This document shows positions 16,146 to 21,967 of a stretch of DNA of 64,000 nucleotides, piece after piece. Below the pieces are notes generated by a model. The model was not told the origin of the DNA, searched no databases, and worked only from the letters and a program-made list of their open reading frames with translations. This DNA comes from Fluviicola sp. (lineage in GTDB: Bacteria; Bacteroidota; Bacteroidia; Flavobacteriales_D; Crocinitomicaceae): assembly GCA_002734085.1 (NCBI GenBank), contig NVXV01000001.1, forward strand, positions 74,198-138,197. Direction: 5' to 3'. Position 1 is the first letter of the stretch. The number at the start of each line of letters is the position of its first letter. The position numbers were made by a program, and so were the translations under genes.

Positions 16146-17096
16146 TTGAACAACCTTGTTTTATATATAGTTATTTTAAGTGGTTTTATTTTAAAAATAA
16201 ATGCCCAACAAAACTTGATACCGAATCATAGTTTTGAAGATACAGTAAGTTGTCCTACTACAGTTGGGCTGAGCAGTGTTGACCTTTGGTTCGTTCCTAA
16301 TACATCAAGTCCTGATTATATGAACTCTTGCTCTGAAGATTTTGGTGTGCCTGAAAATGTATGGGGTTATCAAGAGGCTTATGATGGTTTGGCTTATGCT
16401 GGAGTAGTAACTTATATCAAGTCCCTTGATAACTATAGGGAGTATCTAGGTATTGAATTAGTTTCCCCCTTAATAGCAAATAAGAAATATTATTTTTCAT
16501 TCTATGTTTCTTTGGGAGATATTTATCAGTATGCTACCAAAGAGTTAGGACTGGCCACTTCAGAGACCCAAATTAATCAAAATAATAATGCAGTTTTAAC
16601 AGGAGTGAACGTTATTTTTCAACATGATAAATTTATAACTGACACCCAAAACTGGGTGAATATTTCAGGAAGTTTTATTGCAAATGGAAATGAATCTTAT
16701 CTTTACATTGGTAAGTTTTCAACCGAAACGGATACTTTGGAAGTAAACCCATCTGCTATATTCCCAGACACTTACTATTTAATAGATAACGTTTGTCTCT
16801 CAGAACAACCTTGTGTTGAACCGAGTATCGAAATCCCCAATGTGTTTACACCCAATAATGATGGGGCAAATGATTTTTTTAAAACAAAAGATCAGGGATT
16901 AATTAATAAGCAAATGGTTATTTTAAACCGATGGGGAAACGTTGTTTTTGAAAGCGATGAGTTCGAACAGTGGGATGGAAAAGATCAAAAAGGAAATGAT
17001 TGTACCGAAGGGGTTTATTTTGTAAAAGTTTCTTATGAAAATTCATTAAACAATACTATTGAAACTAAAACAGGGTTCGTTCATTTGATAAGGTAG
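16146..17096 (+). CDS. Secreted protein with type-B T9SS (gliding-motility-associated) C-terminal domain
   Basis: 316 aa starting at TTG (no ATG precedes the signal peptide NNLVLYIVILSGFILKINAQ). Mature N-terminus reads NLIPNHSFEDTVSCP, a common Bacteroidota opening with a jelly-roll-like domain (about 22-220). The last 85 residues (EIPNVFTPNNDGANDFF, ILNRWGNVVFES, WDGKDQKGNDCTEGVYFVKV) are a CHU_C/type-B T9SS sorting domain, so it is exported to the cell surface. The next gene follows 14 bases later on the same strand, suggesting that the two secreted proteins form one operon. Confidence 0.87.
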   Translation: MNNLVLYIVILSGFILKINAQQNLIPNHSFEDTVSCPTTVGLSSVDLWFVPNTSSPDYMNSCSEDFGVPENVWGYQEAYDGLAYAGVVTYIKSLDNYREYLGIELVSPLIANKKYYFSFYVSLGDIYQYATKELGLATSETQINQNNNAVLTGVNVIFQHDKFITDTQNWVNISGSFIANGNESYLYIGKFSTETDTLEVNPSAIFPDTYYLIDNVCLSEQPCVEPSIEIPNVFTPNNDGANDFFKTKDQGLINKQMVILNRWGNVVFESDEFEQWDGKDQKGNDCTEGVYFVKVSYENSLNNTIETKTGFVHLIR

Positions 17097-17110
17097 TAAT
17101 ACTTTATATT

Positions 17111-20100
17111 ATGAACGTTAAATATCTAAAATGTGGAGCTCTTCTACTGATGATGCTTCCCATACTGATGATGCTTCCCACTTTTGCAATTAGTCAAAGT
17201 ACTACTGCTACAAACAATCAAAATAATGCTGGAACTCGCTATCTTGGTTTTCAAAACAACTGGGGTCTTTCAGTAAGAACAGATGGAATCACAAGAATGA
17301 GGATAAACCCAAGTGGAAGTCTTTTTGGTGGTTCAGTTCCTACTGATGGTTATATCGGTATTGGCGATAACCCCGCTGATATACGTAGCCGTTTAACGAT
17401 TACTGGAACCAACAACACCTTCTTTGGAGGAGCTGGTTATCGTTCCTGGATGAAAACAGGAGTTTTTAATCTTGAAAATTCTGACAATTTATACGTAGGT
17501 TTAAAAGATGAAGGGTTTAACCGAAGTGATGCCATTTTTGCATGGGGTGATGATGGAGGTGGAAATGCTTTGAATAACGCTCGATTTATCTTTGCAGGTA
17601 CTGCTCCAGTTAATGGTTCATGTACAAACTGCCCTACAAATTCATCAGGGCTTAATGGTCGTGAAGTTTTAAGGATGAATCCTAATGGAAACATTGGTAT
17701 TGGCCCACTGTTTGTGCAAAACAATCAACCGAAAAGTACAATGCATTTGCACATCGAAAATAACCTGTCGAATTGGTTACAAATCTCTAACCAAAATTTG
17801 GGATTAACACCAAATCTGATATCACAAAGTGACGGATTAAGAATCGGTATCTTTGGTAGTGCAAACAATCTTGTAAATGGAAATGCAATGATTTACAATC
17901 AAGAAAATCGTCATTTATTATTTTCAACAGGTAGTGGAACAGGAATCACAACTCCAACCAACACACGAGAAAGAATGCGAATTACTGCAGTTGCCAATCC
18001 AACAGAATTGCCAAATGGAAACATAGGTAATTACAATCCGGGAAATATAAACGGAAACAGAACTAGGGTGGCGATTAGTCATGATCCTGCAAATCCAGTT
18101 ACACGACCCCTTAGTTTGTTACATCTTGGGTATAATACCGGGAGTTTTCTTTTCCCTGGAACAACCGATGGTTGGCGTTCTTGGATGGACGTAGGGATGT
18201 TTGTGGCACAAGGAACAGACAACATGTATTTTGGTTTAAAACCTGAAGGAAATGATCGATTTGATGCGGTAATTAATTGGGGGGATAATCAAAATCCGGC
18301 TGGTCCTTTTCAGGTTGGACCTGATAATCTAAGATTTGTATTTACTTCAACGATTGCAGTGGGGTCTGGTGATCCTATTTCTACATCTAATGATGGTTTA
18401 GAGGTTATGCGTATGGAGCCTCAAGATGGGCAAACTTTTCAATACAACAATTTTGGTATGGTAGGGATCGGTAATTTCGCAGCTAATGGACCCAATACGG
18501 CACCTGCCGATGTGGTTGATGCTAAATTGGATATTGATGGAGATTTAAGAATTCGTCAAGTGAATCAAGATGATCTTTTAGAAAGAGTTCTTGTAGTTGA
18601 CCCTACAGATCATAATCGAGTATACTGGAGAGATGTTAACAGTATTACGGCAAACGCAAATATTCAAGCCAACAACGGAACCTCTTTAGATCCCAACTCA
18701 ATAGATCCTATCGTTCAGTTAGGACAAGAACTAGTTGGGGGAACACCTGCTTATACAGGAATTGGAGAGTTACTCAATGACCGAGAAATCCCAATGAATG
18801 GACAAGATTTGATCTTTTCTAGTACGAACGCTGGTTTTACAACACCAGGAATCGAACGCATCGCAATTGGTGCAGCCCCACCATCAGCGCCGGGAACTCC
18901 AGTTTTTCCTTCTTTACCAACTTCATTTTTTAATAATGCTTCTTCTAAGCTACAAGTATTTAATGCTACCGAACAAACCGGAGCTCATTTCGTAACACTC
19001 ATGGATCCGTTAGGTATTGGTTTTTCTCCTGATCAGTATTCAGGTGCTAAAGGAACTGTTTTCGCTGATGAAAATGACAAGTCAATTATAGGTCTTTTAG
19101 GTCAAGGAATCTCTTTAACTCAAGGAACAAGGACAGAAGGTGTACGAGGAGAATCATTTGGTTCAGGAAATAATGTGGGTGTAAGTGGTCGCTCTATAGT
19201 GACTCCATTCACTTCCACTGGAGGTGAGTTTACAAGTAGATCTGTTGATGGAATTTGTTTACCAGGAACATCTGTTGGTGTAAGAGGTCGAGCAACAGGA
19301 AGTAACACGAGCAACATCGCAATACTTGGAGAGGTAGATAATGGCAACCCATGTAACGCAGCTGAAAACTATGCTGGGTTCTTTAATGGAGATGTTTTTG
19401 TTAACGGAACATTAACTCAGGCTTCAGACGAAAACTTGAAATCAAACATCCAAAATATTCAGGGAACAGATGCTTTAAATATTATTCGAAATTTAAATCC
19501 AGTTTCTTTTGAATACGATAATAGCATCAATGAACGAATGATGTTGCCAGATGGGATTCAGTATGGATTTGTAGCGCAAGATGTTGAGCAGGTACTGCCA
19601 GCTATTGTGCATACTACAACACTTCCAGCAGAGTTTGATAGTCTTGGGAATGAAATTTCACCAGCATTTGAATTTTTATCGTTGGAGTCTCAGGATTTAA
19701 TTCCGCTTTTACTCGCTGCGGCTCAGGAACAAAGTCAAACAGTTGATAGTTTGTCAAACGAACTCGCTCAAAAAGACTCCCTACTAAACGATGTAAACGA
19801 CCGTTTAACTCAACTTGAAAACTGTTTAAGTAATTTGTTACCACTATTGTGTCAAATTAATAACTCAGCGATCCAACAAAATGATGAAGAAACACAAGAA
19901 GCGTTACTACACCAAATCAATGTAGAGCTGTTCGACGGTGAGAACATCATTCTGGAACAAAACATTCCAAACCCTTTTGCTGAAAGAACAGTGATTAACT
20001 TTAGTATTCCCGCTTCTGTGGGAGAGGCAAAACTGTTATTCTACAACAATCAGGGTAGAATGATTCGTACTGTAAAAATCAACGAAAGAGGTGCTGGACA

Positions 20101-20200
20101 AGTAAATGTGTTCGGTGCGGAACTTAGCAAAGGAACGTACTCTTATACTTTAATTTGTGATGGTGAAGTAATTTCTACCAAAAAAATGGTGAAACAATAA
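17111..20200 (+). CDS. Tail-fiber-like surface protein: S74 chaperone plus type-A T9SS tail
   Basis: 1029 aa. Signal peptide containing a tandem duplication; a long Gly/Asn-rich beta region (about 30-760) with repeated patterns such as NLYVGLKDEGFNRSDAIFAW and NMYFGLKPEGNDRFDAVINW; then a peptidase S74 intramolecular chaperone (about 763-880) whose catalytic-looking motif is Ser772-Asp-Glu-Asn-Leu-Lys777, followed by FVAQDVEQVLP; a coiled coil (about 880-925); and a type-A T9SS domain (about 945-1029, LEQNIPNPFAERTVINF to KKMVKQ). Probably a trimeric surface fibre. If S74 cleaved here, the T9SS tail would be separated from the fibre. Confidence 0.88.
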   Translation: MNVKYLKCGALLLMMLPILMMLPTFAISQSTTATNNQNNAGTRYLGFQNNWGLSVRTDGITRMRINPSGSLFGGSVPTDGYIGIGDNPADIRSRLTITGTNNTFFGGAGYRSWMKTGVFNLENSDNLYVGLKDEGFNRSDAIFAWGDDGGGNALNNARFIFAGTAPVNGSCTNCPTNSSGLNGREVLRMNPNGNIGIGPLFVQNNQPKSTMHLHIENNLSNWLQISNQNLGLTPNLISQSDGLRIGIFGSANNLVNGNAMIYNQENRHLLFSTGSGTGITTPTNTRERMRITAVANPTELPNGNIGNYNPGNINGNRTRVAISHDPANPVTRPLSLLHLGYNTGSFLFPGTTDGWRSWMDVGMFVAQGTDNMYFGLKPEGNDRFDAVINWGDNQNPAGPFQVGPDNLRFVFTSTIAVGSGDPISTSNDGLEVMRMEPQDGQTFQYNNFGMVGIGNFAANGPNTAPADVVDAKLDIDGDLRIRQVNQDDLLERVLVVDPTDHNRVYWRDVNSITANANIQANNGTSLDPNSIDPIVQLGQELVGGTPAYTGIGELLNDREIPMNGQDLIFSSTNAGFTTPGIERIAIGAAPPSAPGTPVFPSLPTSFFNNASSKLQVFNATEQTGAHFVTLMDPLGIGFSPDQYSGAKGTVFADENDKSIIGLLGQGISLTQGTRTEGVRGESFGSGNNVGVSGRSIVTPFTSTGGEFTSRSVDGICLPGTSVGVRGRATGSNTSNIAILGEVDNGNPCNAAENYAGFFNGDVFVNGTLTQASDENLKSNIQNIQGTDALNIIRNLNPVSFEYDNSINERMMLPDGIQYGFVAQDVEQVLPAIVHTTTLPAEFDSLGNEISPAFEFLSLESQDLIPLLLAAAQEQSQTVDSLSNELAQKDSLLNDVNDRLTQLENCLSNLLPLLCQINNSAIQQNDEETQEALLHQINVELFDGENIILEQNIPNPFAERTVINFSIPASVGEAKLLFYNNQGRMIRTVKINERGAGQVNVFGAELSKGTYSYTLICDGEVISTKKMVKQ
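17146..17181 (+). repeat. 18-bp tandem duplication inside the signal peptide
   Basis: ACTGATGATGCTTCCCAT and ACTGATGATGCTTCCCAC follow each other directly, differing only in the last base. In protein terms the six-residue hydrophobic unit LMMLPI/LMMLPT is doubled, lengthening the signal-peptide core. It looks like a recent replication-slippage event and may vary between strains. Confidence 0.85.
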
Positions 20201-20275: not shown

Positions 20276-21967
20276 TTAGAAATACGCCACATACCCAAAA
20301 TGTACTTTACCATTTCTCAACTCAATAGGATTGTCAAATTGTTTTCCTAGCGCATAGGATATTGAGAATATGCCAATGTTAGTTCCAAAACTAAAGCCTG
20401 CTCCAAAACCAAAGGGCGTATCAGCGGAATAGCCATTTGAATTGTTTTCATAGATGGATTGATCATAAAAAGCAAATGCATGGGAGTTTTGATCCACTAA
20501 AAATCGATACTCAAGCGTGAAAGTTGTCATGGTTGTTGCCAACAACTGTTCTTCATCAAAACCTCTTTGTGTCAATAATCCTCCAAACCTATAAAGCTCA
20601 TTTGTAAAAATTGTTGGCGCATAGTATGTACTCGTTTGGTTTGCTAAGCGAATAACATTTCTCCGAGTTATAGGTATAAACCACTCTGCAGTTAAATTAA
20701 TTGAAAAAGTAGTGGATATAGAACTTGTGTCCACCTCTGGTTCACGGCTCGTTCTTCGACCAACGGCCCCTGTTAGATCAAACATAAACCCTTTAGAAGG
20801 ATTAGGCAAATAATCCAATTGTCTTCTAAAGATCCCTAAACCATATCTATTTGTACTAACAGATGAAAAACTCGAATTGGGTAAGGAAGAAGCTCCGCTA
20901 AGTAAATTTGAATTATCCGCTTCATAAAAAGCTTTTATATAATTTCCTCCAAGTAAAAAATATTGCACTCCAATATTAACATTGGTTGTAAGGAAAGTGG
21001 AGTCCTGTTTATACAAATCAAAACTTCCGTCAATTCCAAACGGTGTATTGAAAAGAAAAGGGAAATTCAATTTCATTTTTAAATCTTGTGTTTGAGGCTT
21101 TAAGCTTCTCCAGTTGATATCCAAAAGCTCTCCACGCTTGAGTACGTTTTGTAATTTCAATCGAACATCTCCCGTAATAATATTCTCTTGCGTTACTGGG
21201 TCTGGCTGTATTCCCACCACTCCATTCACTAGACTAACAGGATTACTTTCAAGGTATAAAAACAATTCTGCTCCTTTTTCGGTAAATAAGAGTTCGTACG
21301 GTTTTATTTCATTTAAGAATTGAATTTGTTCTATTCGACTAGGAATTTTTCTTAATCTATTCTCATTGTACAAGTCGCCTTCTTTGATCGAAATATTATT
21401 ACTCAAAAATTTCTTATTAACTTTTGGCTCTCCTTTCAAGTGAATCTCAACAATCTCAACAAGAGGACCTGTATCAATAATCAACTCAGCGATGGTTGTT
21501 CCCGGTTGGATTTCATCCATCTCCAAAAACACTTTTGAAAATGGATAACCATTGTTGACCAGGTAATTAGATACACCGGTAAGTAATATTTCAACTTCTC
21601 CAGGGTTAAAAGGCAATTTGGAGATTGCTCTTTCATTAACTCTTGGTACTTTGCTAATAATGTAATCGTAATCTCTTTTATAGGAGATCGAAATTTTATC
21701 GAATTCATCTCCATAATAGTAATAGACTAATGCTTCATTGTCTCTCCACGATATAGAATCAATTGCGGCCAGGATATGGCCTTTCCGAATATGCTTAGCT
21801 CTCAGTTTTTCGAGTCTATCAATTACGCCTTGTTTTGATTTAAATTCTTTTCCTTCTAATCTTTCAGCTTCCGGAAAATCCTGTTTACTAAAAGACAAAA
21901 AATAAGAATTTTGAGCACTCAAAAAAGTACTGCAGTTCAATGCTATAATCAACACTATTCTTATCAC
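20276..21967 (-). CDS. BamA/TamA-type outer-membrane assembly protein (Omp85 family)
   Basis: 563-aa Omp85-superfamily protein, shorter than BamA. GTG start with signal peptide IVLIIALNCSTFLSAQN; a periplasmic part (about 20-250) with POTRA-like repeats, for example FNPGEVEILLTGVSNYLVNN followed by GYPFSKVFLEMDEI and VEIVEIHLKGEPKVNKKFL; and a C-terminal barrel (about 260-563) with the Omp85 lid-lock motif as QRGFDEEQL and a final aromatic residue (VHFGYVAYF). It probably inserts or exports specific outer-membrane proteins, as TamA does. No tamB-type gene adjoins it, but a large AsmA-family gene lies at 50.2 kb. Confidence 0.85.
   Translation of the reverse strand: MIRIVLIIALNCSTFLSAQNSYFLSFSKQDFPEAERLEGKEFKSKQGVIDRLEKLRAKHIRKGHILAAIDSISWRDNEALVYYYYGDEFDKISISYKRDYDYIISKVPRVNERAISKLPFNPGEVEILLTGVSNYLVNNGYPFSKVFLEMDEIQPGTTIAELIIDTGPLVEIVEIHLKGEPKVNKKFLSNNISIKEGDLYNENRLRKIPSRIEQIQFLNEIKPYELLFTEKGAELFLYLESNPVSLVNGVVGIQPDPVTQENIITGDVRLKLQNVLKRGELLDINWRSLKPQTQDLKMKLNFPFLFNTPFGIDGSFDLYKQDSTFLTTNVNIGVQYFLLGGNYIKAFYEADNSNLLSGASSLPNSSFSSVSTNRYGLGIFRRQLDYLPNPSKGFMFDLTGAVGRRTSREPEVDTSSISTTFSINLTAEWFIPITRRNVIRLANQTSTYYAPTIFTNELYRFGGLLTQRGFDEEQLLATTMTTFTLEYRFLVDQNSHAFAFYDQSIYENNSNGYSADTPFGFGAGFSFGTNIGIFSISYALGKQFDNPIELRNGKVHFGYVAYF

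Follow-up and report, generated by a model that had tools for sequence, protein, structure and literature searches.

Peptidase S74 domains cut only once a trimer has formed, as described for K1F, T5 and MyRF (PMC4690869, PMC3742443), and self-cutting has been proven for MyRF (PMC8326128) and for the T5-type fibre (PMC4690869). After the cut, the T5 chaperone must be released (PMC4690869) and the halves of MyRF part (PMC3742443); in MyRF, the strand that carries the cut site is threaded through the neighbour's ring (PMC8326128). Cargo of the T9SS depends on a C-terminal tail for its export and, according to a review of this pathway, folds in the periplasm (PMC10202324). No description of an S74 domain joined with the T9SS was found in the open-access literature, papers elsewhere being possible, and the one S74 paper on Bacteroidetes found there deals with injection systems.

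Within the window, the whole stretch of 64,000 nucleotides of Fluviicola sp. DNA that was analysed, the gene at 17111-20200 encodes a protein that combines the two (Table 1). The sequence-only reading had placed S74 domains ahead of a coiled coil and a type A T9SS tail in this product, and that order is borne out, with the correction that there is one S74 domain and not several: Pfam's PF13884 matches residues 772-833 (E 6.8e-15, 55.5 bits, cut-off 22). After the S74 domain and its helix, the protein continues for 110 more residues, which include the sorting tail. Here NCBIfam's TIGR04183 matches residues 953-1029 with 27.6 bits against a cut-off of 23, Pfam's type A model PF18962 scores 21.6 bits, below its cut-off of 27, and Foldseek likens the domain to chain 8gl8_D of the T9SS translocon complex (prob 1.00, E 0.039). 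The tail is of type A, weak but real. SprA (2416 bits), PorU (1222 bits) and 138 matches to type A tails are found in the same genome. At the other end, the N-terminus resembles a Sec signal peptide and is likely to be one. The fibre part (residues 30-771) has no Pfam match, and BLAST with residues 30-735 finds matches almost only among proteins with a T9SS tail. A Pfam coiled-coil match, XLF_CC, fell below its cut-off and was taken as coiled-coil noise. As judged from its domains, the product would be a phage-fibre-like secreted protein of Bacteroidota that presumably forms trimers.

Table 1. Features of the fibre gene and of the partner gene upstream, in window positions.
Feature	Residues	Position	Strand	Evidence
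Partner gene, jelly-roll-like N-terminal domain		16146..16811	+	AF2 pLDDT 86; PDB matches
Partner gene, T9SS type B sorting domain		16827..17093	+	TIGR04131 44.2 bits, cut-off 35; CHU_C 2.8e-18
Gap from partner to fibre gene, 14 bp; probable operon		17097..17110	+	same order and strand, short gap in relatives
Fibre gene, complete and open reading frame, ATG start, 1029 aa	1-1029	17111-20200	+	
Sec signal peptide, predicted	1-29	17111..17197	+	hydrophobic N-terminus MNVKYLKCGALLLMMLPILMMLPTFAIS
Fibre part, ~740 residues	30-771	17198..19423	+	BLAST matches of residues 30-735 almost confined to tail-bearing proteins
Peptidase S74 / intramolecular chaperone domain	772-833	19424..19609	+	PF13884; AF2 model against MyRF ICA 7dc3
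Predicted nucleophile; predicted cut Ala771-Ser772	Ser772	19424..19426	+	aligned with MyRF S587 and T5-type Ser
Predicted catalytic partner	Lys777	19439..19441	+	corresponds to MyRF K592 (PMC8326128); invariant in 70/70
Coiled-coil helix, 60 residues	860-919	19688..19867	+	AF2 model helix H123-182
Cys pair at coiled-coil end	Cys905, Cys914	19823..19852	+	conserved Cys pair
T9SS type A sorting domain	953-1029	19967..20197	+	TIGR04183; Foldseek to 8gl8_D

Two further features of the locus were observed. The fibre contains an internal repeat, residues about 109-191 and about 355-440 (17435-17683 and about 18173-18430), 43% identical over 88 residues and with the pattern RSWM..GVF...DN.Y.GLK.EG..R.DA...WGD. 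Directly behind the fibre gene, a convergent gene (20276-21967) encodes an outer-membrane barrel-like protein with a POTRA domain; no homologue of it was found in the loci of 80 relatives (the best 80 of at least 489).

The motif SDENLK holds Ser772, Asp773 and Lys777, and its Ser and Lys, the pair named by the sequence-only reading, fall in the alignment on the catalytic residues of MyRF and of the T5-type fibre. An AlphaFold (AF2) model of residues 738-1029, computed as a monomer, predicts an S74 fold followed by a helix of coiled-coil type. The model matches the MyRF ICA domain 7dc3 with Z 9.4 (2.8 Å over 133 residues), the K1F endosialidase 3gw6 with Z 6.2 and the T5 fibre 4uw8 with Z 6.1; only the MyRF match is clear of unrelated rows, K1F and T5 being named as the expected family. 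The residue 14 positions before the Ser, where the stalk arginine would stand, is Phe758. With a cut at Ser772, the fibre would indeed be parted from its sorting tail, and the puzzle seen from the letters is a correct one.

Conservation of the pair bears on whether this cut is made. In the S74 part of 70 aligned tail-bearing members, only Ser772, Asp773, Lys777 and Gly819 are fully invariant. The two findings that would have refuted the sequence-only reading, catalytic residues out of register with known S74 proteins and a uniform lack of Ser/Lys in homologues with the same order, were both looked for and not obtained: the residues align, and of the S74 domains that stand ahead of a T9SS tail across Bacteroidota, 120/120 have the pair, partial S74 domains at contig ends being set aside in these counts. 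As 80 of the counted loci were collected by peptide patterns in the sorting tail alone (the best 80 of at least 489), this conservation is not a selection effect. In the genome samples, all 108 tail-less bacterial S74 domains also have the pair, as do 76/76 viral ones. In contrast, in one other family, fibre-less secreted proteins of about 140 residues, consisting of a signal peptide, S74 and a helix, have lost the Ser in 5/5 cases (L364, L365, L366, L367 and L368) and the Lys in 4/5. In T5 and MyRF, domains with the Ser changed to Ala still fold and form crystals (PMC4690869, PMC8326128), which, together with the loss in fibre-less proteins, indicates that the S74 fold does not need the pair. 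Kept beside a fibre and lost where there is nothing to cut, the pair points to cutting, and the comparison argues that self-cleavage before Ser772 is real. Tandem S74 domains, two before the coiled coil and both with Ser and Lys, occur in three other fibres (L029, L064, L025).

At position +3 of the motif, Arg (SDxRxK) is found among the relatives in 1/32 domains with a tail versus 41/53 without (Fisher p 3e-12). As a switch tied to the tail, this Arg was rejected: 10 of the 13 tail-bearing domains of the phylum sample have it, the T5-type fibre is without it (SDINLK), and phylogenetically independent pairs on the tree gave no association with the tail. On these sequence comparisons, its absence is a lineage trait. 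The missing arginines have nonetheless to be weighed, as they would fit an S74 domain that does not cut and only folds and joins the chains, leaving the fibre covalently on its foot with the C-terminus anchored at the T9SS attachment step. Such an arrangement, which the Cys pair described below would also fit as the staple of a permanent foot, would account for the absence of both the stalk arginine and, in the main lineage, Arg +3; yet it leaves the 120/120 Ser/Lys pairs set against their loss in fibre-less S74 proteins, Arg +3 is lacking in the T5-type fibre as well and has no tie to the tail once relatedness is considered, and the R590A version of MyRF still cuts partly (PMC8326128). We consider it unlikely. 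Of the two alternatives that the sequence-only reading had put forward, folding without cutting is thus weakened, by the fibre-less proteins and the Ser-to-Ala domains, and delayed cleavage is the one that the sequence comparisons would favour.

A Cys pair (NCLSxILPxLC or CC) closes the coiled coil, immediately ahead of the sorting tail, in 86/99 tails of the Arg-less main lineage, compared with 1/13 tails with Arg; tail-less S74 proteins have it in 1/105 bacterial and 1/76 viral cases. These figures count sequences and not independent events. A covalent ring of three chains requires two Cys in each, and the adjacent CC form makes a bond within one chain unlikely. Cys905 and Cys914 are thus probably an inter-chain disulfide staple of the trimer, which suggests a lasting foot rather than a discarded chaperone. 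The position of the pair right before the tail would also suit a cut made before export with the pieces held together. The trimer would then fold and cut itself in the periplasm, the fibre ends would stay threaded through the S74 rings of the disulfide-stapled foot, and the three tails would take the nicked complex out via SprA. This order of events is supported by the folding of T9SS cargo in the periplasm (PMC10202324), by cutting that follows trimer folding in K1F, T5 and MyRF (PMC4690869, PMC3742443) and by the threaded cut site of MyRF (PMC8326128). However, the nicked trimer would need to survive the passage, and in the known systems the pieces come apart, with release of the chaperone required in T5 (PMC4690869) and the halves separating in MyRF (PMC3742443), so that we regard this course as rather unlikely.

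To place the protein among its relatives, S74 domains and sorting tails were counted across genomes. S74 is present in 35/59 related genomes, where 33 of 90 S74 rows carry a T9SS tail, and in 39/148 genomes of the phylum sample. When one genome per species was scanned, an alignment of eight tails serving as query, at least 489 related stretches were obtained. The best 80 of these, fetched by sorting-tail patterns, have the S74-then-tail order in nearly all loci and come from Crocinitomicaceae, Fluviicola, Brumimicrobium, Taishania, Vicingus and other Bacteroidota, many of them as metagenome assemblies. TIGR04183 matches 70/70 aligned homologues and PF13884 does likewise. The S74-before-T9SS-tail layout is a widespread family, far beyond chance. 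On trees, which have few columns and are weakly resolved, well-supported branches show at least four to six switches of the tail label, indicating that tail and S74 have been joined or parted repeatedly. T5-like fibres match residues 696-899. A viral origin of the whole protein was rejected, as viral contigs match only the S74 domain and coiled coil, none of them with a tail, and for the whole 1029-aa protein no viral relative was found. The genome itself holds two S74 proteins, the 17111-20200 product and one without a T9SS tail. The second (L001, 1330-2988 of contig C12) has a signal peptide and near-perfect repeats of about 31 residues (LSGIPADIADGDDVDDADNDPTNEIETWST).

Upstream of the fibre gene lies a second T9SS cargo gene (16146-17096), which we call the partner. 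A homologue of the partner is the direct upstream neighbour on the same strand in 37/67 loci with sufficient upstream sequence, and 32 of these 37 pairs have a gap of 3-20 bp. Elsewhere, the partner is upstream in 0/7 loci with Arg and tail, 1/43 without a tail and 0/46 viral loci, all loci of this test having been fetched via the fibre and not via the partner; the single tail-less locus with a partner looks like a broken family member. Partner and fibre genes are a two-gene cassette and a probable operon. The sorting tails of the partners, 39 in all, match TIGR04131 (type B) in 26 cases and TIGR04183 (type A) in 15, a few of them matching both models. The N-terminal domain of the partner matched no Pfam family, and the best PDB matches of its model include CBM4, CBM16, CBM22 and gingipain adhesin domains. 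By this model it would be a carbohydrate-binding-like jelly roll, a common fold, for which sugar binding is a guess. The cassette also bears on the idea that the cut precedes export and the pieces part, the tail exporting the S74-coiled-coil foot only and the fibre being the active product in the periplasm. Nothing in the sequence forbids this, and S74 proteins with a signal peptide and without a T9SS tail do exist, as L001 illustrates; the tail would, however, then do nothing for the fibre, although fibre head, S74 and tail are inherited as a unit and the gene next door encodes T9SS cargo. This makes a periplasmic fibre very unlikely.

Overall, we favour a reading in which the cut follows export and use of the tail and parts the fibre from its foot, with a probability of roughly 50%. 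Three chains would be joined by the S74 domain and the coiled coil, the Cys pair would staple them into a covalent trimer, and the T9SS, acting on the C-terminal tail, would take the protein through the outer membrane. With Lys777 activating it within the S74 trimer, Ser772 would then cut between Ala771 and Ser772 and so separate the fibre (30-771) from the S74-coiled-coil foot, the tail being removed by PorU. The fibre might be released as a soluble trimer or stay at the surface through some other contact, the partner protein being one candidate. What we infer is when the cut takes place and what the partner does, and the argument is as follows: if cleavage is real, it must follow export or leave the pieces attached, as a cut before export with the pieces parting would deprive the fibre of its tag, whereas a cut after use of the tail would not waste the sorting signal. 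Several points count against this favoured reading. Periplasmic folding of cargo (PMC10202324) would favour early cutting, the Cys staple hints at a foot that lasts, the stalk arginine is replaced by Phe758, though MyRF is also without it, and simple release of the fibre would bring no evident gain over tail removal by PorU alone.

A more tentative extension of post-export cutting is self-release gated by export. Passage through the T9SS, by formation of the trimer outside or by removal of the tail by PorU, might switch the S74 protease on; the stapled foot would stay, and the phage-type fibre would be freed or passed to the partner. We see this as possible, and if it is true, fibre and partner gene would jointly make up a bacterial surface appendage of a new kind. 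At this locus, a phage-type self-cutting fibre chaperone sits between cargo and address tag in a pathway that reads C-terminal tags. Because the Ser/Lys pair shows no decay there, the bacteria need some way of putting trimer folding, export and cutting in sequence, and the locus makes a T9SS question testable, namely whether trimeric folded cargo passes and when it is assembled. Beyond this genome, the data point to a two-gene fibre cassette that is widespread in Bacteroidota and has no name as yet.

Among known systems, type A cargo of the T9SS (TIGR04183 / PF18962, for example gingipains) has the C-terminal sorting domain in common with this protein, whose genome encodes SprA and PorU; no type A cargo with S74 or with a self-cutting trimeric fibre was found described in the open-access literature. 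The phage chaperones of the T5 L-shaped fibre pb1 (4uw8), the K1F endosialidase (3gw6) and the GA-1 appendage (3gud) have the S74 fold and SDxxxK, as here. In these phage proteins, S74 and helix are the extreme C-terminus and are discarded, whereas here a T9SS tail stands behind them; in K1F and T5 a stalk arginine completes the active site, where the 17111-20200 product has Phe758. The closest fold is the ICA domain of MyRF/MYRF (7dc3), an animal and Dictyostelium transcription factor that shares the Ser/Lys pair and, like our protein, is without the stalk arginine (PMC8326128), which shows that this arginine does not define S74 overall. In MyRF, S74 is internal and followed by a coiled coil and a C-terminal membrane anchor (PMC3742443), in the place of the T9SS tail here. 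The expectation that S74 sits at the extreme C-terminus thus holds for phages and Bdellovibrio fibres and fails as a general rule, internal S74 domains being common in Bacteroidota too. MyRF is an ER membrane protein with a DNA-binding head and a TM segment after S74, unlike the T9SS tail, and no Cys pair such as Cys905/Cys914 is reported for it in the papers cited here. The S74-group MAT fibres of Bdellovibrio (Bd3182) are likewise bacterial and have a long fibre and S74, with a signal peptide where the Fluviicola protein has a probable one, and the MAT family is marked by a conserved domain of ~130 aa behind that peptide; Bd3182 is a trimeric surface fibre with a self-cutting S74 domain, S782 (PMC10769870). 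These MAT proteins end in S74, whereas the 17111-20200 product ends in a T9SS tail; neither such a tail nor a partner cargo gene is reported for them, and their attachment is thought to be via an N-terminal domain. Internal S74 thus has its precedent in MyRF and the self-cutting S74 surface fibre in the Bdellovibrio MAT proteins, and it is the sorting tail behind S74 that sets the Fluviicola protein apart from both.
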